Shown here in pieces: positions 453 to 38,311 of a stretch of DNA of 42,021 bases (position 1 is the first letter of the stretch; every line of letters starts with the position of its first letter). A program made the position numbers and the translations under genes. This stretch comes from a virus. The notes under the pieces were generated by a model that searched no databases, had not been told where the DNA came from, and was given only the letters and a program-made list of their open reading frames with translations. Where the stretch lies: positions 1 to 42,021 of the IMG/VR virus record IMGVR_UViG_3300005515_000620; one strand, given 5' to 3'.

Positions 453-1096
453 GACGCGGTCTCCTGCCGGCGGCGGCGGTTCCACTCCAAGATGGCCGCA
501 TTGGTCAGCGGCGTTTTCGTGTCCGCCATGTCCGCCTGATACGCGGCATCGCTGATCGCCGGCCGCCCGCCTTGCGCCTCCGCGGCGCGCAGCTCGGCCG
601 GATCGACCCGTGCCGCCGAACTGTCGGCGTCAGGGTCCTGCAGCGTGGCATCGCGCACCGCCTTTTGCGCCGCGATCACCTGTCGCACCTGATCGGCGCT
701 CGGCCCCTTGAACGCCTGCACGCCTTTGAGCGTGCGATCTCCGAAGAAGAACGCAACCACCGTGCCCAGCACGATCCACATGGGTTCGGGGATCAGCTGC
801 ATGGCGATCATGGCGTCGGAAAAGCCCACCGTATCGATCGGGCACCAGATGAACAGCGCGATGATGCCGAGCGCCATCAACGGCCGCGGCAGCCGGTTGA
901 GGCCGTCGACAAAGCTATCCCAGGCGCTGCGGTTGGCGCGGAACTGGAACTCGGCCGCGAACTCGTTTTGATTGGCCGCGTTCAACTCGAACGATTGGCT
1001 GTCGCGCGCCGCCTTGGAGCCAAAGAAGGTTTGCGCCAGCGTGTTGACCCCGCCGAGGAGCGAGCCGCCGAGCAGATCCATCACCTTGCCCCACAT
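449..1096 (-). CDS. Holin, GTA 3TM type
   Basis: A 215-residue protein whose ATG at 1096 overlaps the endolysin stop (ATGA); a GTG nine bases further upstream is possible but less likely. The N-terminus is amphipathic. Two or three membrane segments lie around residues 70-125, with a conserved acidic/aromatic stretch between them and a G-D-R-T exit motif. A charged cytoplasmic tail follows. This matches the 3-TM holin family linked to gene-transfer-agent release (Pfam GTA_holin_3TM). It would open or depolarise the inner membrane so that the endolysin can act. The Ala- and Asp-rich C-terminus is longer than needed for a minimal holin. Confidence 0.8.
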   Translation of the reverse strand: MWGKVMDLLGGSLLGGVNTLAQTFFGSKAARDSQSFELNAANQNEFAAEFQFRANRSAWDSFVDGLNRLPRPLMALGIIALFIWCPIDTVGFSDAMIAMQLIPEPMWIVLGTVVAFFFGDRTLKGVQAFKGPSADQVRQVIAAQKAVRDATLQDPDADSSAARVDPAELRAAEAQGGRPAISDAAYQADMADTKTPLTNAAILEWNRRRRQETAS

Positions 1097-3238: not shown

Positions 3239-4960
3239 TCAGAACAGAATATCAATCGTGCTTTCGTTGCGGCTGGCCGTGATGCCCTTGCCCACAACGA
3301 CCACGTTGCGCCCGCCGGCCAGGCCGTAGCGGTAATAGGTGACGTGGCCGGTCGAGTTGAGCGGCACCAGGAAGCCTTGGTGCTTGAATCGGATGCGCGC
3401 GAGCTGCAACCCGCCGGCATAGAGCACGCGCTGGCGCTCCGCCTCCGCCGCCGCATCGGCTTTCTGCGCGAACAGCGCCGGCCGGGTCACGTCCTGCGCC
3501 CGCCGGTGCGCCACGGTCAGGGCAATATCGGAAGACGTGGCATAGCGGTACTCATTCGCCAGGAACTGGCGCCGCGCCTGCGCCACACCCACGGCGATGT
3601 CGGTCAGCTGCGGTGTGAAGTTGCGTTGATAGCCGACCCGCATCCGCCAGACCGGCGGGCTGATCGTGGCCGGCGGCTCCAGCAAGTTGAAATCCAGGAT
3701 GTCGCTTTCATCAATCCACCACAGCGGTTCTGCCGCGGGACGGTCGACCCGGCCAACCTCGATCTTGTTGACCTGGTTCGGCCCCCACCAACCGCAGATG
3801 CCGCCCAGCACTGCGTCCAGCAGATCGCCGAGCGTGGCGACCTCGGGTCCCTGATAGACCCCGATCGGCGCCGGTTGCTTGGCATGCAACGCCTCGAATG
3901 TGCCGAGCGCAAAGCGATCGTCCGGCAGGCCGCCGCGATCATGCGCGATGCGAAACGCGACCTTGGCCGCGCTCGAAACATAGACGCCCCAGGCCTTGTC
4001 GCCGCGAAGATCCGCCGTAACGATGCCTTGCGGAATCGAGCCGAGCCGAATATAGCCGCCGGACTTCTGTACTTTGAAATGCCCGGCGCTCACCACAGCC
4101 GCGGTGATATCGGCGACGTCGCCTTCGAAGGTCAGGGCCAATCCCCGATCGTAAGCCGCGGTCACGGCGTCCAGCGCGCCGTCATGGGCCTGATAGATCA
4201 GGTTCACCGGATCGAGCAGCACCAGCGGCGCATTGAGGCATTCGCCGAAGGCGAGCGGCTTCGGTCGGCCCTCCAGCTCACCGGTGCCATCCAGGCCGCC
4301 GGTCCCGCCATAGAGATTCGGCTGTGCCGGCGCGTCCATCTCCCAAGCGGCGTCCCGGACATCCAGCGCAACCGAGCCGTCATCGGCCAAGCGCCAGTTG
4401 CCGGCGGTGGCGTCCAGGATGGTCTGGAACTCGGCCAGCCGGACATGCGGCGCGCCGATCTTCACACTGACTTCGCGGCCATCCACGGCATGATTGCGCA
4501 CCACGTCATCCAAGGCGCGGTCGCTGTTAATCAGCGTGATCTGCCCGACCTGCAGCAGCACGCGCCGATCGGCGTCCGGCGTGATCGGCAAGGCGCGCAT
4601 GATCGATAGCGGCTCGGTTACCCGCGATTCCCAATGGGTGTCCGCCGGATCATCATCCGGTTCCGAGGTGAAGCCGCGATCCGAGAAATGCAGCACCACC
4701 GGCGCCGCACCGGTCGTAGCCTCATCGAAAGCCGAGACCGGCAGCGCAGCCACCGGAAAAGCGTCGAGATCTTCGGCCGCCCCCTCGATCGCCACGCCGG
4801 GCGCATAGCTGGTGATGTCCACCAGATAGACAACGTCGATGACGGCGCTGTCATCGAGCGCGATTTCCAGCACGGGCGCAGTTGCGACCGGCTCTTCCAC
4901 TGCCGCCACCGGCAAAGCCGCAACGGCAAAGATTGGTTCATCGTCCAGGATGTCAGGCAT
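3239..4960 (-). CDS. Tail tip / baseplate-like protein
   Basis: A 573-residue protein. The first 75 residues are a low-complexity Ala/Val/Pro/Asp stretch with repeated V-A-A-L-P-V blocks. A structured region then begins with the motif FSDRGF, followed by a P-A-D-T segment and a predicted beta-rich body. This motif order (short beta stretch with FSDRG, then TEPLS) is seen in putative tail proteins of alphaproteobacterial siphophages. Its position between the SGNH fibre gene and the 261-residue tail gene supports a role in the distal tail, possibly as a hub. The N-terminal acidic repeats may be an attachment region. Exact function unknown. Confidence 0.65.
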   Translation of the reverse strand: MPDILDDEPIFAVAALPVAAVEEPVATAPVLEIALDDSAVIDVVYLVDITSYAPGVAIEGAAEDLDAFPVAALPVSAFDEATTGAAPVVLHFSDRGFTSEPDDDPADTHWESRVTEPLSIMRALPITPDADRRVLLQVGQITLINSDRALDDVVRNHAVDGREVSVKIGAPHVRLAEFQTILDATAGNWRLADDGSVALDVRDAAWEMDAPAQPNLYGGTGGLDGTGELEGRPKPLAFGECLNAPLVLLDPVNLIYQAHDGALDAVTAAYDRGLALTFEGDVADITAAVVSAGHFKVQKSGGYIRLGSIPQGIVTADLRGDKAWGVYVSSAAKVAFRIAHDRGGLPDDRFALGTFEALHAKQPAPIGVYQGPEVATLGDLLDAVLGGICGWWGPNQVNKIEVGRVDRPAAEPLWWIDESDILDFNLLEPPATISPPVWRMRVGYQRNFTPQLTDIAVGVAQARRQFLANEYRYATSSDIALTVAHRRAQDVTRPALFAQKADAAAEAERQRVLYAGGLQLARIRFKHQGFLVPLNSTGHVTYYRYGLAGGRNVVVVGKGITASRNESTIDILF

Positions 4961-22068: not shown

Positions 22069-22296
22069 CTACCCCTTCGAAAACGAGACGTAGCTGGCGC
22101 GAATGGGTGGCGTCGAAGCCGAGGCGGCCAGTGGATTGGCCACGCCGAGCGCCGCGGCGACCGTGCCGATCCGCGATTCCAGATCGGCGCGGCTGGCGTA
22201 TTCCATCTTGCGGCCGTCATACTCCACGACCAGCGCACCGAGGCCCCAAGCCTGCACCAGCGCGTCCAGCATCCCCTGGTTAATCGCCGTGGTCAT
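22069..22296 (-). CDS. gpW-like head-tail joining protein
   Basis: A 75-residue protein. ATG 22296 overlaps the large terminase stop (ATGA); the longer open frame upstream is a shadow and rejected. The sequence, with A-L-V-V-E-Y-D-G-R-K, R-A-D-L-E-S-R-I and small size, resembles gpW-type proteins that sit between terminase and portal genes and close the head. It lies in exactly that slot here. Confidence 0.75.
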   Translation of the reverse strand: MTTAINQGMLDALVQAWGLGALVVEYDGRKMEYASRADLESRIGTVAAALGVANPLAASASTPPIRASYVSFSKG

Positions 22297-24425
22297 CGCT
22301 TCAGCCAGTCCTTTCTGCGACCGCCGATCCATTCGCCGTCGCTGCGCGGCCCTCGTTCGGCAGCCCGTTGCGCCGCAGCCGCCGCAGGCTGCTCCGTCAC
22401 CGCTGTCGGGGCCTCGCCTTCGATCACCCGCACCAGCGAATTGACATCGTGCGGCGCGGCCCATAGCGGCGCGTCGGTCCAATCGATCCGATCCCATCGC
22501 CATGGCGGCCGCATCACTGCGGCGCGCGCATAGACCATGTGGTCGAAAGCTTCGTTGCGGATCTGGCCGGGCCGCAGATCCCAACCCTTTTCCGTCTTTT
22601 GCTCGGCTGTTACCTGCGCATACCACTCGCCAATTAGGTTCTTTGGCGTGTGAACGTAGCCGGGACCCGGCGCGGTGCGTCGAAGCGCACCGGCCACATC
22701 GTCCTTCAGATCGTTCGACCCGATCAGCAGCAACTGCTGCCCGCGCGCGATCAGCCGGCCGTCCTGTTTCCAGTCGAGCTTGCTGAGGCCGATGCGCTTG
22801 GGGCCGACCTTTGCGTCACCCTTCAGCAGCATCAACCGCGCCTTGTCGATCTTGCGCTTACGGGCCTCGATCCCGAACCGGTAAGCATTGCCCGTCACGC
22901 CCGGCGCGCCGCCGCTGTCGATCGCAACGCACAGCGCGGCAAGTCCGCGGCTCGGATCATCGGCAAGCGGCCATGCCCGGTCGAGCAGCGGCCACAACTG
23001 CGCCCAATCCTCCGGATGGGAGGCCGGATCGCAGAGTCGGCCATCCTCGGCCGAGCCCGTGATCTGCCAGCGATCGACAATCCAGCACTCCCATTCCGGG
23101 CCAAAGCCGGTCACCTGGACGTCGAAATATCGCCCTTGCACGTCCACCGTGATCACCAGCGCGCGAACCCCGGCCGGCACGGTGCTTTGCAGCCAGGCTT
23201 CTTTCCGCAGCTCGATCGCCGCCGCGTCCAGAACTTCGGCGTTCGGATCTTCGCGCGGCCAATATGGTTCGCCGAGCGACGTGTTGATGACGCTCCGCAG
23301 TCCCTCGGCATCGCCGTTGCGGTTGAACGCGGCTTCGGCCCGAAGATAGGCGCGCACCAGATCCGGCCATGTCTGAAACGCCGCAGCCGGCCCTTTCAGC
23401 CAAAAGCTGGCGATGCTGGACCGACGCGGCGTGCCGGTGATCTGGCCCGCCGCGTCGATCCGCTCCCCCTCCCGCAGCCACCGGCCCCGAGCATTCATCC
23501 AATCTTTTCTCTGCGGCTCGATCTCGGCGCCGCAGGATGGGCAGTCCATCACGGCCGCCGCCGCAGCTTCCTCGATCGAGCCGAGCGGTTCGCCGTCTTT
23601 GTCCTTCGGCCAGGACAGATGCTTGAACTGCCCTTCGAAGTAATCGCCGCAATGTGGGCACGGCCAGTACCAGAGTCGCCGGTCACCCTGGTTGAACAGG
23701 TCGAGGATGCCGGTCGTGGGTGGCGCTTCATGACCGGTTGGCTGCCACGGCTTTTCCGGATCGACCACAACGTCCCGGCCCGGCGAGCATTCGACCACCG
23801 TCATGCCGCGCGAGCCGTAGGTTTGCGTCCGCTTGCGGCCGAGCTCGAAAACCGATCCTTCGCCGCCCACGCTTTCCGGCATACGGTCGTACTCGGTCAC
23901 CAGCACCAGCTGATAATCCTTGCTGGAAAGGTGATCGATGGTCGGCCAGCCGTTGACCAGCCGCATCCCCGAGTAAAGCTTGTCGAAGAGATTGTCGTCG
24001 TTGCGGTTCGGCGAAAGCCGCTTCCGCACTTCCGGACAAACGCGGTTCATCGGATCCAGGTGTTCCAGCGAGAACAGCCGCGCGCTGTTCTGACTGGTGT
24101 TGATCATCAACGTCGAGCACGGATCGCAGATGATACGATGCAGCGCCGTGTTGAGCATCAGCGCCGCCGACTTTGCAGACCGCGCCGGCCCGGCGAAGAT
24201 AACCGCCTCTTTCTCACGTGACGCCGTTTCGTCCATCGGCTCGACCATGTACGGCGCGGTCGTGTTGCGCCATGGTCCGGTCTGGCCGCCGGTTGTGATG
24301 ATGCGATAGCGCTCGGCGGCAATGGATGGCGCCAGCTTTTGGCGCGGCATCAAAATCGCCGAAGCTTTCCGGAACACGTCCTCCGGATCGGCGAAGCCCG
24401 ACTCAGTCCGCGAGGAAGTCACCAT
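22293..24425 (-). CDS. Terminase large subunit, GpA family
   Basis: A 710-residue packaging motor. The ATPase domain has an atypical Walker A, G-P-A-R-S-A-K-S (residues 79-86; Ala where Gly usually precedes Lys), and a Walker B, L-V-L-V-T-E-Y-D (residues 173-180). Two CPxC pairs (Cys256/259 and Cys295/298) form a zinc-binding insert as in GpA proteins. The C-terminal half has an RNase H-like nuclease fold with V-I-T-V-D-V-Q. GpA-type terminases usually cut cos sites in lambda-like phages, suggesting cos packaging. The start overlaps the small subunit by 23 bases. Confidence 0.9.
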   Translation of the reverse strand: MVTSSRTESGFADPEDVFRKASAILMPRQKLAPSIAAERYRIITTGGQTGPWRNTTAPYMVEPMDETASREKEAVIFAGPARSAKSAALMLNTALHRIICDPCSTLMINTSQNSARLFSLEHLDPMNRVCPEVRKRLSPNRNDDNLFDKLYSGMRLVNGWPTIDHLSSKDYQLVLVTEYDRMPESVGGEGSVFELGRKRTQTYGSRGMTVVECSPGRDVVVDPEKPWQPTGHEAPPTTGILDLFNQGDRRLWYWPCPHCGDYFEGQFKHLSWPKDKDGEPLGSIEEAAAAAVMDCPSCGAEIEPQRKDWMNARGRWLREGERIDAAGQITGTPRRSSIASFWLKGPAAAFQTWPDLVRAYLRAEAAFNRNGDAEGLRSVINTSLGEPYWPREDPNAEVLDAAAIELRKEAWLQSTVPAGVRALVITVDVQGRYFDVQVTGFGPEWECWIVDRWQITGSAEDGRLCDPASHPEDWAQLWPLLDRAWPLADDPSRGLAALCVAIDSGGAPGVTGNAYRFGIEARKRKIDKARLMLLKGDAKVGPKRIGLSKLDWKQDGRLIARGQQLLLIGSNDLKDDVAGALRRTAPGPGYVHTPKNLIGEWYAQVTAEQKTEKGWDLRPGQIRNEAFDHMVYARAAVMRPPWRWDRIDWTDAPLWAAPHDVNSLVRVIEGEAPTAVTEQPAAAAAQRAAERGPRSDGEWIGGRRKDWLKR

Positions 24426-24993
24426 GCATCAACTCATTCGCGAGGTGTTCGCAGAAGGTCGAAACCTCGGCCGCGCACAACTCCGTCGTCGCCGCATCCC
24501 AATTCAATCGCCGCGCCAGCGTGTCCGGCATGCGCGCCATGAAATCGGCCACGAATTTCAAGCGGCGTTCCAGGGCACGCTCGGCGCGGGCAACTTCGAC
24601 CAGCTCGCCGCGGGTCTGGCGCAGCTTGACCGCCAGCAGTTCGGCCTGGTGCGCCTTGATCTTCTGATCGGCGGTCAGGCGGTCATCGCCATCGACGGCG
24701 CCGCCAATCAATTCCATTTGCAGCTGCGCGATGCGCTCATTGCGCTTGCGGGCCGCTTCGGCTTCCTCGGTCTCGCGCGCTTCCAGATAGGTGCGCAGCT
24801 TGACCGGATCGATCTGATACGGGCGGCCGTTGCCGCCGCGCTCCACCACGAATCGGTCGCCGCCATCGCGAATCCAGCGATCGAGGGTCGGCAGCGAGAC
24901 CTTGAACGCCTCGGCCGCCTCCTCGCGGGTCAGGGTAAGCGGTGCCTCGGCTGCCTCAACCGGCGCCGTGACGGCCGCCGCGTTGTCAGGCAT
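24403..24993 (-). CDS. Terminase small subunit
   Basis: A 196-residue protein. Residues 22-55 form a winged-helix-like or Nu1-type DNA-binding motif (R-E-E-A-A-E-A-F-K-V-S ... L-D-R-W-I-R-D-G-G). A long charged helix (75-150) would mediate oligomer formation. The C-terminal residues may contact the large subunit, into whose start it overlaps. It would recognise the packaging site, perhaps in the non-coding region just upstream. Confidence 0.8.
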   Translation of the reverse strand: MPDNAAAVTAPVEAAEAPLTLTREEAAEAFKVSLPTLDRWIRDGGDRFVVERGGNGRPYQIDPVKLRTYLEARETEEAEAARKRNERIAQLQMELIGGAVDGDDRLTADQKIKAHQAELLAVKLRQTRGELVEVARAERALERRLKFVADFMARMPDTLARRLNWDAATTELCAAEVSTFCEHLANELMHGDFLAD

Positions 24994-25274
24994 GGCGGCA
25001 CCATCAACAGAAACATCAACCTAAAGCCCTGATAAATCAGGAATCTATCAAAACCCCGCGCCCTAGCCGCCCGCATAGCGCCTCGGATGCGGGAAGGACC
25101 CAAGGGCATCGGGCATAGCGGGATGTGCGGCCGGGTTTTCACCCAGGGACCGGCCCGGCGCTACTGATGACCGGCCGCACGGTGCTGGAAACGGAAGCGC
25201 GCCCGGCGAGTCTCGCATCGGGCGCGCTGATCTCTGATCTTAGCGTTGGAAATACGCCAAAGCGTCTAACTCGT
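24994..25274. other. Non-coding region before terminase; candidate cos
   Basis: A gap of 281 bases with no convincing gene. It contains two inverted repeats: CCTGAT-AA-ATCAGG at 25028-25041, and a perfect 10-base repeat, GTGCGGCCGG (25125-25134) with CCGGCCGCAC (25171-25180), 36 bases apart. Lambda-like phages carry cos just upstream of the small terminase gene, so this is the most likely place for the packaging site. Assignment is by position only; no cos consensus was matched. Confidence 0.4.
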
Positions 25275-25898
25275 CTAAAGAATAATTCCACTCTCGGTCA
25301 ATAATTGGAATAGACGCACGAGAGCGCCGAGATAGTCAGCGCGCACCGTGTCTTTGTTGCAGCCCTTGACCACGTCATTGGCGATGGAGCGGTAGCCCAT
25401 GCCCTTGGCGCGGGCCAAGACAATCCGCCGTTCGTGATCACTTCCCAGCAGCGTGAGCCATCCAAAGCAACGATCCATGCGGCTGATCTCTTGCGCCGTG
25501 GGCACCGCCGGCCTGGTGCGCAGCAGTCGCGCCTGCGCTTCCTCAACATCGTGAATGCTCCACACGTCCTGCAGCATGGCAGGCCAGGACGAACCCGAGC
25601 CACCGACCGCGCCCGGCAATCGCCGCATGCAATCCACCGCCGCGCGGAACTCCTCTTCAAGCCGGTCAATGCCAAGCTGCTGCATCAACCCAGCATCGGA
25701 CACGCCGCGTTGCTTGGCGCCGCCCTTCGCCTTTGCGCCGCGCCGGCCCTCACGCCGCGCCAGCTTGGCGCGCAGCTGCGCCACCTCCGCCTGATCGGTT
25801 TCGCTCAACGGCTCAGCATAGGCGGCGGCCTGTGCCTTCAACTCGGCTTCGCGCTTCGCGTCTAGCCCGCGCGGCTTCAGCACACCCGCAACCGTCAT
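25275..25898 (-). CDS. DUF6362 family protein, HTH-like
   Basis: A 207-residue protein from ATG 25898 with a nearby A-rich ribosome site (AAGGAAGGAAAA). The longer open frame to 26087 translates the GGTCCA repeats as repeated W-T-F and is rejected. The C-terminal half matches DUF6362: C-M-R-R-L-P, a W-P-A-M-L segment, I-S-R-M-D-R-C-F-G-W-L, R-R-I-V-L-A-R-A-K-G-M-G-Y-R-S-I-A, ending in a helix-turn-helix-like R-A-D-Y-L. The family is found in alphaproteobacterial phages. DNA binding is likely. Whether it binds the repeats just upstream is unknown. Confidence 0.65.
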   Translation of the reverse strand: MTVAGVLKPRGLDAKREAELKAQAAAYAEPLSETDQAEVAQLRAKLARREGRRGAKAKGGAKQRGVSDAGLMQQLGIDRLEEEFRAAVDCMRRLPGAVGGSGSSWPAMLQDVWSIHDVEEAQARLLRTRPAVPTAQEISRMDRCFGWLTLLGSDHERRIVLARAKGMGYRSIANDVVKGCNKDTVRADYLGALVRLFQLLTESGIIL

Positions 25899-25915
25899 CG
25901 TCTTTTCCTTCCTTC

Positions 25916-26194
25916 GGTCCTCTGGACCTTCTGGACCTTTTTTGCAGTATTTCTCTCTATCGTGATGCGCCCATGCATCGCAGCGGTTCCCGGAAAAGGT
26001 CCAGAAGGTCCAGAAGGTCCAAACCCATTGATTGGATTTGCCTATTCGTATGGACCTTTTCCCCGCCGTGGACCTTATAAGGTCCACGATGACGGCGGCG
26101 GCGGCCTCGACGCGGCGTTTCTGAGGGTCAAGGCCCGGTCATCTGGACGATAAAAGGTCCAGTCTGGACCTTTGGCCGCGCAAAAGGTCCAGAT
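25916..26194. repeat. Iteron-like array of GGTCCA motifs
   Basis: A 280-base stretch holds 11 copies of GGTCCA (either strand), most within the longer unit AAGGTCCAG. Two head-to-tail copies on the minus strand (25922-25939) and three on the plus strand (25996-26022) have exact 9-base spacing. There are also a 22-base perfect palindrome (26067-26088, centre TTATAA) and an inverted pair of AAAGGTCCAG around one T (26153-26173), plus a copy at 26183-26192. The array lies between the SF3 helicase gene and DUF6362. It could be a replication origin (iterons) or an operator array. Confidence 0.8.
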
Positions 26195-27747
26195 CATTCG
26201 GCCGGCCTTTCCTCGGCGCCATAGGCATCCGGATCGGGAACCGGCGCCTCGCCTTCCTCGACCGGCTTCGGCAACAGCTCAAGGTCTTGGTAGTAGTAAA
26301 CGCCGGTCTTTTCCTTGTGATAGCCGCGGTCACCGAGTGCACGGCCGAAGATATGGATGGATGCAGCCTTGCTCTTGTCGCCGAAGTTGCGAACGCACCA
26401 CGCCACATAGTCATCAAACAGCGCCTTGGCCGTCACGGTGGCGCCGGGCTTGCGCACGGTGCGATCCCGCAGGAATTCGCCGATCGGATCGCTTTCCGCG
26501 CGATACTCGTCGCGCGCCGCTTCGATCGCAGCCACATGCGGCAGCCCGCGTTCCTGCCATTCCAGGAACCCCTCGAACATCCAATTGAAGATTCCGGCCG
26601 CTTCGGCGCGCAGCTTCGCCATCATCCGCTTATCGCGCTCGGGCTTCGGAATGGTGACCGTGAACGGCACCAGGCCGAGCCGCCGCCAAATGCCCTCATC
26701 CTGCCCGCGCACCGTGGGCTTGCGGTTGACCGAGATCACCAGCTTGAACGCCGGCATGAATTCGAATTGATCTTTGAACAGCTTTCGCGCCGTCATCATT
26801 TCGCCGCCGGTGATCGTCTTGACCACGCTTTCCGAGATCCGCGCCGAAGTCTCCGGCTCGGACGCCAGCACCAGCCGCGCGCCCGGCAGCCGCGCAATGT
26901 CCGGCGTAGCATCGCCGCCGCGCTTGCGGTCATCGGCGAGGAATGTCTCGATCGGCAGAGTGACGGCGTATTCACCCATCACGTATTTGATGGCGTCCAG
27001 CAGGGTCGACTTGCCGTTGGCGCCTGTGCCGTAACAGATGACAATCATCTGTTCGCCGATATCGCCGGTCAGGCAGTAGCCGAAGAAGACTTGCAGGAAG
27101 TGCCGCACGTCCTGGTCCGGCATGATCTTTTCGAGAAAGGACATGAACACCGGGCATTGCGCCTCCGGATCATGCATCGCCCCGGCAAGCTTGCTGATCC
27201 GATCGCGGCGCGCATGCGGCGCCAGCACGGCGGGCGCACCGGCCTCCTCGCGCGGCTGCAACAGCAGCGTCCCGTTCTGGCAGTTGAATTTGCGCGGGTC
27301 CTGATCGAGCGTTTGCGGCGGCACACGCTTTTTCGGCACGGCCATTTCCAACATCGCCTTGACCCGCGGCGCGTTGCCGCTGGCGACGCCGAATTTGCTG
27401 TGTTTCTCGGCGCGGTCCATCAATAGCGCGCGTTTCTCGGTCGCAGCCTCGCTCCGCTCATCCTCCGATCGCCGCAGCTCATCCGCGATCAGGCGTGCTT
27501 CGATCGTGATGGCCTCGGCCGTCATCTGCGCCCGCGTCGTGGCTTCGGCCTCGCCGAATTTTCCACCCTGGAACCGCTTGGCGTCCCAGACGTGCCAACC
27601 AATGTCATCGACAAACAGCATGTCATGGCCATGCCGTGCGATCAGCCGCCGCGCATTGCCGGTATCGTTCGGCGGCTCGTAGAGCAACTTGCGATCATCC
27701 GCCACAATCGGCGCGTCATCGATCAGGCCGAGGATGGGGTTATTCAC
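26194..27747 (-). CDS. P4/D5-type primase-helicase (SF3 helicase)
   Basis: A 517-residue protein started at GTG 27747 (GTGA overlap with the primase stop). Residues 1-200 include a D5_N-like region; residues 235-380 are an SF3 helicase: Walker A G-T-G-A-N-G-K-S-T (240-248), a Walker B strand (290-299), sensor Asn341 in V-I-S-V-N-R-K-P, and an Arg finger in I-W-R-R-L. It unwinds DNA at phage replication forks. Together with the CHC2/TOPRIM gene just upstream it forms a split version of the fused P4 alpha protein. The repeat array directly after it may be its origin. Confidence 0.85.
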   Translation of the reverse strand: MNNPILGLIDDAPIVADDRKLLYEPPNDTGNARRLIARHGHDMLFVDDIGWHVWDAKRFQGGKFGEAEATTRAQMTAEAITIEARLIADELRRSEDERSEAATEKRALLMDRAEKHSKFGVASGNAPRVKAMLEMAVPKKRVPPQTLDQDPRKFNCQNGTLLLQPREEAGAPAVLAPHARRDRISKLAGAMHDPEAQCPVFMSFLEKIMPDQDVRHFLQVFFGYCLTGDIGEQMIVICYGTGANGKSTLLDAIKYVMGEYAVTLPIETFLADDRKRGGDATPDIARLPGARLVLASEPETSARISESVVKTITGGEMMTARKLFKDQFEFMPAFKLVISVNRKPTVRGQDEGIWRRLGLVPFTVTIPKPERDKRMMAKLRAEAAGIFNWMFEGFLEWQERGLPHVAAIEAARDEYRAESDPIGEFLRDRTVRKPGATVTAKALFDDYVAWCVRNFGDKSKAASIHIFGRALGDRGYHKEKTGVYYYQDLELLPKPVEEGEAPVPDPDAYGAEERPAE

Positions 27748-28973
27748 GCCGGCACCAGTTCTTTGAGTGAAGCCATCGCCATGCCCAGGCTGTTCCAATC
27801 CGTCCCGTTCGGCGGCCAGGCCAGCCGCACCGTGACGCCATCGGCATGGAAGCGCCGCGCCGCACGGTTCATCATGGCGCGGGTGATCTCCGGATCGGAG
27901 TCACCATCCGCCAGAATGATCAACTCGCGGACCTCGCGCGGCAGGATGATTCCAGGCCTTGACATATCCGGATATTCGGTCGGCAGGATCACCGGCCCGA
28001 GATCTTGGCCGCTGCGCGGGTCGGTGCGGCGTTTCCACGAATGCGCCGGCGCATGCCGCTGTGACCGCTCGTCGCCGGCACCGGCAATGTTGCCCATGCT
28101 CAGCGCGGCCCACACCGGCAACTGCGAACCGGTCGCCCGATAGGCGCCGAGCACCCAGGCCCCGGTTTCGATTCCCTCCGAAACCGCCAGCGTGGCACCA
28201 CCGCCCGTCGCCGGCTGCATCGGTTCGCCGTCGGGGCCGAGCAGCGGCGCGAGACGCACCGCGCCACCCCAACAATTGCCCAGCATCTTCTTAGCAACGG
28301 CCTTGTCCGGCCGATCGGCGCCGGGCGGCTTGAAGAATGTCCGATGAATGCCGCGCAAGGCCCGGTCCGGCCCTTGCACCGCGGCGACCATGGCGCGATA
28401 GCGCGACCCGCCCTTCTCGGTTTCCAGATTGGGATGAAACTTCAGCGTGGGCGGCACGCCGCCGATCGCGTCGACGTCAATGGCACGGCGCCGCAACCAG
28501 TGCTCAACCTCGGTCCCACGGCCCGACCAGGACGCAGCCCAGATGGCGCGCCACATATCCTGCACGAAAGCATTGCGCCGCTCTTCGTCCGCCGCGCTCT
28601 GCGGCCCCGAAGGCGGCGGCGGCAACGGGCGCAATTTTTCCGGCTTGGCGGCGGTCATACCTTGCGGTGGCTCAAGCCCGATCCGCGCGGCAAGATCCAG
28701 GGCCGCCTCACGGAACTCCAAGCGTTGCAGCTGCATCACAAAGCCGACCGCATCGCCATGCGCGCCGCAGCCATAGCAGTGGTAATGCGCGTCATGGCCG
28801 GGCCAGACATGGAAAGAGCCGGTTTTCTCACTGTGGAACGGGCACCGCCCCAGCCAAGTCCCGCCGGCCCGTTTCAACGGCGCGACCTCGCTGATCAGCG
28901 CCACAATGTTGACCCGTGCGCGCAGTTGCTCCAGCCACGCGTCGGGAAAGCGGATTTGCGCTGCCGCGCTCAT
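27744..28973 (-). CDS. CHC2/TOPRIM DNA primase
   Basis: A 409-residue protein from ATG 28973 (ATGA overlap with the 31-residue peptide). Residues 40-75 are a CHC2 zinc finger: Cys44, His47, Cys66 and Cys69. A Pro-rich linker follows. Residues 255-370 form a TOPRIM_3 domain: S-E-G-I-E-T (Glu266) and A-D-G-D-S-D (Asp356, Asp358, Asp360). It would make RNA primers for phage replication. It pairs with the SF3 helicase gene downstream. Confidence 0.85.
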   Translation of the reverse strand: MSAAAQIRFPDAWLEQLRARVNIVALISEVAPLKRAGGTWLGRCPFHSEKTGSFHVWPGHDAHYHCYGCGAHGDAVGFVMQLQRLEFREAALDLAARIGLEPPQGMTAAKPEKLRPLPPPPSGPQSAADEERRNAFVQDMWRAIWAASWSGRGTEVEHWLRRRAIDVDAIGGVPPTLKFHPNLETEKGGSRYRAMVAAVQGPDRALRGIHRTFFKPPGADRPDKAVAKKMLGNCWGGAVRLAPLLGPDGEPMQPATGGGATLAVSEGIETGAWVLGAYRATGSQLPVWAALSMGNIAGAGDERSQRHAPAHSWKRRTDPRSGQDLGPVILPTEYPDMSRPGIILPREVRELIILADGDSDPEITRAMMNRAARRFHADGVTVRLAWPPNGTDWNSLGMAMASLKELVPA

Positions 28974-29065
28974 TGACCGGCCCACTCGATCAGCTTGAAC
29001 GCACTAAACACCAGCACCACCACAAACACGGACCAGCCCGCCAACAGCACGCGAACCCCGGTCAT
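28970..29065 (-). CDS. 31-residue single-span membrane peptide
   Basis: A 31-residue open frame starting ATG 29065 and ending TGA 28970. It is joined to the methyltransferase stop upstream and the primase start downstream by ATGA overlaps on both sides, the same linkage used by most genes here. The peptide has one clear hydrophobic helix (G-W-S-V-F-V-V-V-L-V-F-S-A-F) and short polar ends. No family is recognised. The double overlap argues that it is translated. Because of its length it may be missed in standard annotation. Confidence 0.7.
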   Translation of the reverse strand: MTGVRVLLAGWSVFVVVLVFSAFKLIEWAGQ

Positions 29066-37543: not shown

Positions 37544-38311
37544 ATGGGCAATCCTTGGGTTACCTTCGGCAATCGCAAACTGGATCTGATCGACCCCGAT
37601 CCGCAGGCGATCACCTTGCGCGCCTTGGCCAACTCGCTGGCGATGATGCCGCGGTGGTCGGGCCACATGCGGGCGCATTACAGCGTGGCCGAGCATGAAA
37701 CCCGCGCCGCATGGCTGGCATCGCCCGCCGCGCGCGGCTACGCCTTCTGTCACGACCATGCCGAGGCGGTTTGGCACGATCTCCCGGCGCCGGCCAAGGA
37801 TGCGTTGCGGCTGCTGGACAGCGGTTCGGATGGTGTCTCGGCCTACGACCGCGCCTATGCGATCACCGATCGCGCCATGCACCGTGCCTTCGGCCTGCAA
37901 TGGCCGGCGCCGCTCGACATCAAAGCCGAGGTGCGCCGCGTCGACCTGCTGTTGCTCGCGACCGAAAAACGCGACCTGACCGCGCCCGATCAGCCGGAAT
38001 GGGACTGGACCTTGCCGGCCCCGATGACAGCCCCGATCATCCCGATCGAGGATTGGCGCGAGGCCGCCGAGCAGTTCTGCCAGATGGCCCGACTGCTGCA
38101 TTTCCTCGGCGACTTGCCGCGCCTGCCCGAGCGCAACCCGCGCTGTTTCATCTGCGGCTGGCCTTACGCCGCCGATGAATCGCAAGGCTGCGTTCCCGGC
38201 AATTGCAGCTATCGGCCCGCCGGCAGCCGTGATGATGAGCGCAACGTCGGGTATGACATTCGCCGCGCACAGCTGCGGGCCTTCACCGCCGGCAGCGGGT
38301 GCGACCGATGA
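37544..38311 (+). CDS. HD-superfamily phosphohydrolase (YfbR-like)
   Basis: A 255-residue protein from ATG 37544 with GGAAG upstream. The pattern R-W-S-G-H-M-R-A-H-Y-S-V-A-E-H and then C-H-D-H-A-E-A (His70-Asp71) matches HD-domain 5'-deoxyribonucleotidases such as YfbR. The C-terminus has extra Cys-rich residues (C-F-I-C-G-W), possibly a metal site. It would remove phosphate from dNMPs or change nucleotide pools in the infected cell, together with the MazG-like gene further down. Confidence 0.7.
   Translation: MGNPWVTFGNRKLDLIDPDPQAITLRALANSLAMMPRWSGHMRAHYSVAEHETRAAWLASPAARGYAFCHDHAEAVWHDLPAPAKDALRLLDSGSDGVSAYDRAYAITDRAMHRAFGLQWPAPLDIKAEVRRVDLLLLATEKRDLTAPDQPEWDWTLPAPMTAPIIPIEDWREAAEQFCQMARLLHFLGDLPRLPERNPRCFICGWPYAADESQGCVPGNCSYRPAGSRDDERNVGYDIRRAQLRAFTAGSGCDR

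Follow-up and report, generated by a model that had tools for sequence, protein, structure and literature searches.

We analysed the linear virus record IMGVR_UViG_3300005515_000620 over its full length of 42,021 bp (hereafter the window); the record is possibly incomplete. The genes around the locus all lie on the minus strand, and their coordinates are collected in the table below. The predicted initiator is an SF3 helicase whose true start codon may lie downstream of 27798. Its structure model is confident (pLDDT 90); the fold is that of viral PrimPol/D5 helicases, with a winged helix at the C-terminal end (residues 438-504). An array of short repeats begins about 3 bp past the helicase stop codon (26194) and ends about 25 bp before the start codon of the DUF6362 gene (25898), in agreement with the first-pass annotation, which had placed it between these two genes. 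In parts of the gap between the DUF6362 and small terminase genes (24994-25274), DNA stability is among the lowest in the window, and the gap is a place to seek a cos site.

Table. Features of the iteron array and of the neighbouring genes in the window
Feature	Coordinates	Strand	Basis or remark
Iteron array, candidate replication origin, 11 AAGGTCCA octamers	25921..26193	.	motif count
Iterons 1-2, AAGGTCCA at 25923-25930 and 25932-25939	25923..25939	-	9-bp spacing
Spacer between inverted tandem sets	25940..25995	.	48% AT vs 35% in the window
Iterons 3-5, AAGGTCCA at 25996, 26005 and 26014	25996..26021	+	9-bp spacing; inverted relative to iterons 1-2
Second AT-richer spacer	26022..26050	.	62% AT
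Iteron 6	26051..26058	-	
22-bp perfect palindrome, iterons 7 (-) and 8 (+) with flanks	26067..26088	.	
Inverted pair around one T, iterons 9 (+) and 10 (-)	26153..26173	.	arms 26153-26162 and 26164-26173
Iteron 11	26184..26191	+	
SF3 helicase (D5_N + DUF5906), predicted initiator	26194..27798	-	domain matches
Helicase C-terminal winged-helix domain (predicted), codons 437-507	26278..26490	-	structure model
Recognition helix and wing, residues 477-507	26278-26370	-	covaries with iteron
DnaG-type primase (CHC2 zinc finger, DUF7146, Toprim)	27744..28985	-	upstream of helicase, same direction
DUF6362 protein, first gene past array	25275..25898	-	
Terminase small subunit	24403-24993	-	
Terminase large subunit, lambda gpA type	22293-24425	-	

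The array consists of 11 octamers AAGGTCCA within 25923-26191, five on the minus strand and six on the plus strand. From the letters alone, the first-pass annotation had described 11 copies of GGTCCA/TGGACC in about 280 bases, with two and three tandem copies at exact 9-base spacing, a 22-base perfect palindrome and an inverted pair around a single T, and each of these elements is present; the tandem copies of the hexamer start at 25923 and 25932 and, on the plus strand in iterons 3-5, at 25998, 26007 and 26016. The 9-base spacing stood, and the repeat unit itself was corrected to 8 nt because any of the four bases (G, A, T or C) can follow it. A 21-nt perfect inverted repeat (25921-25941 versus 25994-26014, with 52 nt between the arms) is the longest. 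The spacer between the inverted tandem sets is a candidate unwinding region; on its left side, from 25937, stability falls within the lowest 0.1% of 30-bp stretches.

We counted the motif across the record, as had been proposed, and found that its density is peculiar to the array. GGTCCA/TGGACC occurs 28 times in the whole window (shuffle mean 17.2) and 11 of the 28 copies fall inside 25923-26191, while only two further octamers AAGGTCCA, at 38006 and 40365 and both on the minus strand, occur elsewhere in the 42 kb. We simulated 200 sequences with the dinucleotide composition of the window, and the number of GGTCCA copies in any 280 bp never exceeded three. In the real sequence AAGGTCCA, with 11 copies, was more clustered than any other 8-mer, whereas the best 8-mer in ten simulated sequences reached 3-5 copies. 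GC skew, another proposed check, showed no switch at the array and was uninformative.

We searched for homologous helicases irrespective of their repeats. The single helicase gave no matches as a query against viral contigs and genome contigs. An alignment of four helicases retrieved 80 viral loci with homologous helicases, none of them chosen for repeats. A GGTCCA cluster was found at the helicase end in none of the 80 loci, and in most of them another word was clustered there (CGTCCC, CTGTCC, ACCCTC, CCTCCC, GTGTCCG, CGCCAC and others). Near-duplicates were removed and the window, L132, L139 and L014 were added, which gave 71 non-redundant loci. The 350-bp interval at the helicase 3' end was the densest in repeats of its whole locus in 47 out of 71 (65-270 intervals were scored per locus), and in the remaining 24 a denser repeat lay elsewhere or the helicase end had none. 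A repeat score >2 was reached at the helicase 3' end in 50 of the 71 loci versus 267 out of 8,210 control intervals (3.3%). A second cluster, with the word GTTAAC and distinct from the origin-like array, lies about 1.5-2.0 kb past the helicase in L159, L160 and L180.

The layout is common to the loci despite the different words: tandem copies, mostly 9 bp apart, are inverted around an AT-richer spacer. With six comparison phages counted in, same-strand iteron spacing peaks at 9 bp (95 out of 169 pairs), and the spacer between the inverted tandem sets is richer in AT than its locus in 35 out of 35 loci (58% versus 39%). We made a blind prediction by searching viral contigs for the word CTGTCC in the inverted 9-bp layout. 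This resulted in 21 stretches, 12 of which had a recognisable helicase gene by three profiles, two of them built from GGTCCA-array loci that are not among the CTGTCC loci. The array adjoined the helicase in all 12, with the limit that some contigs (L253, L256) derive from viruses already represented by L159 and L160, the source of the word, and are therefore not independent. Nine of the 12 arrays were on the 3' side of the helicase (<200 bp) and three, in L249, L265 and L267, on its 5' side (within ~250 bp).

We ran the same repeat-density method on phages with known or annotated origins. Three annotated features came out first in their respective loci: the type I repeats of P4 crr, ~45 bp past the alpha gene on its 3' side, the 302-bp origin 3' of the Sfi21 primase gene and the rep_origin 3' of the phage A2 helicase gene. 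The helicase 3' end also ranks first in phi105, AmM-1 and RcapNL. The best cluster was 0.5-1.9 kb from the helicase in Rhizobium RR1-A and Rhodobacter RcRhea, and the method found no repeat cluster in DrManhattan. RR1-A (L236) carries ten CTGTCC copies in one 350-bp interval ~1.8 kb past the helicase, apparently a displaced array, separated from the helicase by two genes. In RcapNL (L238) the array, at 4170-4455, ends near an annotated cohesive end. Together with the lambda gpA type of the window terminase, this would fit a cos or cosB-like terminase-binding site used in lambda-type packaging. We consider such a site very unlikely, given that arrays keep with the helicase though the terminase is 4.9 kb off (L014) or outside the stretch, and that the annotated cos of Sfi21 is ~6 kb from its annotated origin.

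We also searched viral contigs and bacterial genomes for the GGTCCA word itself, using the layout pattern TGGACCNNNTGGACC, 45-75 bp, GGTCCANNNGGTCCA. Matches just 3' of helicase genes were found in L132 (whose helicase is 46% identical to that of the window), L139, L014, L125, L113/L147, L136, L112 (with near-identical relatives L120/L121), L148, L119 (array ~550 bp from the helicase gene) and L140. These loci were retrieved via GGTCCA, so the frequency of the word cannot be derived from them. The hexamer and the period are constant among them, and the three bases between copies vary per element. The neighbouring helicases include D5-like, DUF5906-only and DUF927 proteins. The remaining matches were repeats that either fell within long open frames or belonged to a class of chromosomal hairpins. 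Widening the gap of the pattern added nearly only repeats in long open frames and no new helicase neighbours. A first scan with a tandem pattern was set aside because many matches resembled coding repeats of the collagen type, with Gly-Pro codons. With the scrambled word ACCTGG as a control, we obtained four coding repeats and one array outside long frames (L248), which lies 2 bp from a helicase 3' end and therefore resembles a member of the class itself.

Several contigs of a single Parachlamydiaceae MAG, as well as Lentisphaeria, Verrucomicrobia and others, contain long GGTCCA hairpins with a period near 9 and no helicase nearby (L128, L130, L131, L138, L142, L144, L146 and similar). These resemble palindromic repeats of chromosomes and seem to be of a different kind. 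Another GGTCCA array, in L111 (1103-1188), is flanked by terminase and portal genes on a contig of 4 kb, without a recognised helicase. Upstream of a ParB-domain gene in L122 (5915-6011), an array likewise lacks a recognised helicase. This last locus, and the fact that plasmid iterons also control copy number, bear on a reading of the window array as a parS-like partition site or as copy-control iterons, an incompatibility site and not the origin itself. We consider this reading very unlikely: none of the window genes tested encodes a ParB, and the ParB association is confined to one locus while the helicase association extends to dozens.

Which protein reads the iterons was addressed by covariation. 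Iteron similarity tracks helicase similarity (Mantel r 0.40, 0/2000; 45 loci). With the helicase core (residues 41-425) held fixed, the identity of the recognition helix and wing still correlates with iteron similarity (partial r 0.27-0.28, 0/2000 and 0/1000). By segment, and with boundaries that were set after viewing the alignment, r is 0.18 for residues 477-491 and 0.23 for 492-507 (both 0/1000), the adjacent helices 437-476 show no correlation (r 0.02), and core segment 281-320 is marginal (0.12, 32/1000, uncorrected for 14 segments). A clear relation with the iteron sequence is thus seen for residues 477-507 and for no other segment. Pairs of loci illustrate this: L178 and L159 have cores that are 81% identical and differ in wings and iterons (CGTCCC and CTGTCC, respectively), and L178 and L165, with cores 70% identical, have a similar wing and an identical iteron. 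As the correlation is clear for the recognition helix and wing only, the helicase itself is indicated as the reader. Joint recombination of the 3' end of the gene with the adjacent array could account for part of the covariation; this reading is weakened because residues 437-476 should have been carried along.

The first-pass annotation had offered a second role, an operator of the packaging operon bound by DUF6362. The array does lie just upstream of the DUF6362 and terminase genes, and L211 has the same order of helicase, array and DUF6362. As a general function this role is not supported, since arrays exist without DUF6362: the curated cut-off is passed in three out of 41 array-bearing records (the window, the record of L211 and one bacterial genome), and genes of 30 different families follow the array in 49 loci. 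DUF6362 is missing from most array-bearing records and is therefore not the general reader; it might still have a role in the present phage alone. For the window, an operator or late promoter of this kind seems improbable: there is no promoter-like site in 25700-26400, the repeat word tracks the recognition helix and wing of the helicase, and the structure model of DUF6362 is of low confidence (pLDDT 56), too poor for use. We also considered that the array acts as RNA, as a terminator or attenuator hairpin between the helicase and DUF6362 genes, because the inverted sets could fold into long hairpins in a transcript. The array region gave neither a terminator-like site nor an Rfam match at the family threshold, the strict 9-bp tandem spacing and dispersed orientations fit protein binding on DNA, and the word follows the DNA-binding helix of a protein, which makes a function in RNA extremely unlikely.

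The array is very probably a phage replication origin whose AAGGTCCA iterons are bound by the C-terminal winged helix of the adjacent SF3 helicase. The first-pass annotation had favoured iterons of a P4-type helicase, and this proposal gained support from the position and layout in homologues, the phages with annotated origins and the covariation with the recognition helix and wing. Each AAGGTCCA would serve as an iteron for the winged helix of the helicase encoded immediately upstream, and tandem iterons 9 bp apart would gather helicase subunits side by side. The inverted sets flanking the AT-richer spacer may allow two helicase rings to assemble face to face and melt the spacer, leading to bidirectional replication, and the upstream DnaG-type primase could then prime at the opened origin. 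A primase homologue precedes the helicase in 23 out of 50 array loci. By analogy with SaPI Rep, Cch2 and P4, we infer that binding is direct, that two hexamers form and that melting and priming take place.

More broadly, we think it somewhat more probable than its opposite that phages of many bacterial phyla share this origin type, in which an iteron array lies 3' of an SF3 helicase and the recognition helix and wing constitute a readable iteron code. If so, the origin, and in part the specificity of the initiator, would be predictable from sequence alone, and the origin layout of phage-inducible chromosomal islands would be a widespread phage design and not a PICI hallmark. Neither the breadth of the origin type across phages nor the recognition-helix code seems to have been described in the literature searched, with most subscription journals outside that search, and nothing relevant was retrieved on GGTCCA repeats in phages. 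The window supplies a concrete candidate pair of origin and initiator for an uncultured phage. It also suggests a simple rule, by which inverted repeats ~9 bp apart just 3' of an SF3 helicase point to candidate origins in many phages, and a short helicase segment appears to determine which word is read. Predicted origins are directly testable, since phage replication can be blocked by a cloned origin: in many copies, the origin region of Sfi21 blocks the accumulation of invading phage DNA (PMC6356513).

We compared the array with known replication systems. In SaPIs and PICIs the origin follows rep directly, its AT-rich region has an iteron set on either side, and the C-terminal domain of Rep reads it (PMC6092414, PMC7581432). 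The window resembles these origins in having an array immediately 3' of the helicase gene (~3 bp past its stop), multiple identical short iterons (here 11 octamers, including inverted tandem sets) and an initiator that combines an SF3 ATPase with a predicted C-terminal DNA-binding domain (D5_N + DUF5906, winged helix). The enrichment of the corresponding spacers is modest (48% and 62% AT versus 35% in the window). Unlike SaPIs and PICIs, the window represents a phage that has terminase and structural genes of its own, a separate DnaG-type primase gene, the iteron AAGGTCCA and extra palindromic iteron pairs. The element itself was rejected as a PICI, which would be a satellite without virion genes, because the window encodes its own large and small terminase subunits.

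P4 crr likewise has 8-bp type I repeats in both orientations, the first pair 9 bp apart, whereas its repeat is GGTGAACA and its alpha protein combines primase and helicase. A further site of P4, ori1, lies at a distance of several kb; here there is a single array, and a P4-like two-part origin was rejected because the 42-kb record (linear and possibly incomplete) contains one AAGGTCCA cluster only. In pRN1, the origin is directly downstream of an SF3/primase replication gene (ORF904) with a C-terminal winged helix (PMC4234260), but it is a 100-nt stem-loop without iterons. Sfi21 and A2 share with the window a non-coding origin directly 3' of an SF3 primase/helicase gene, with inverted short repeats; their words (AGTAAC, ACGGGAG) are different and their spacers very AT-rich. 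The earlier statement that no array of this form had been described thus does not hold: the layout is already known from the origins of SaPI/PICI, P4, Sfi21 and A2, and the window array, judged by its sequence, belongs to that type.
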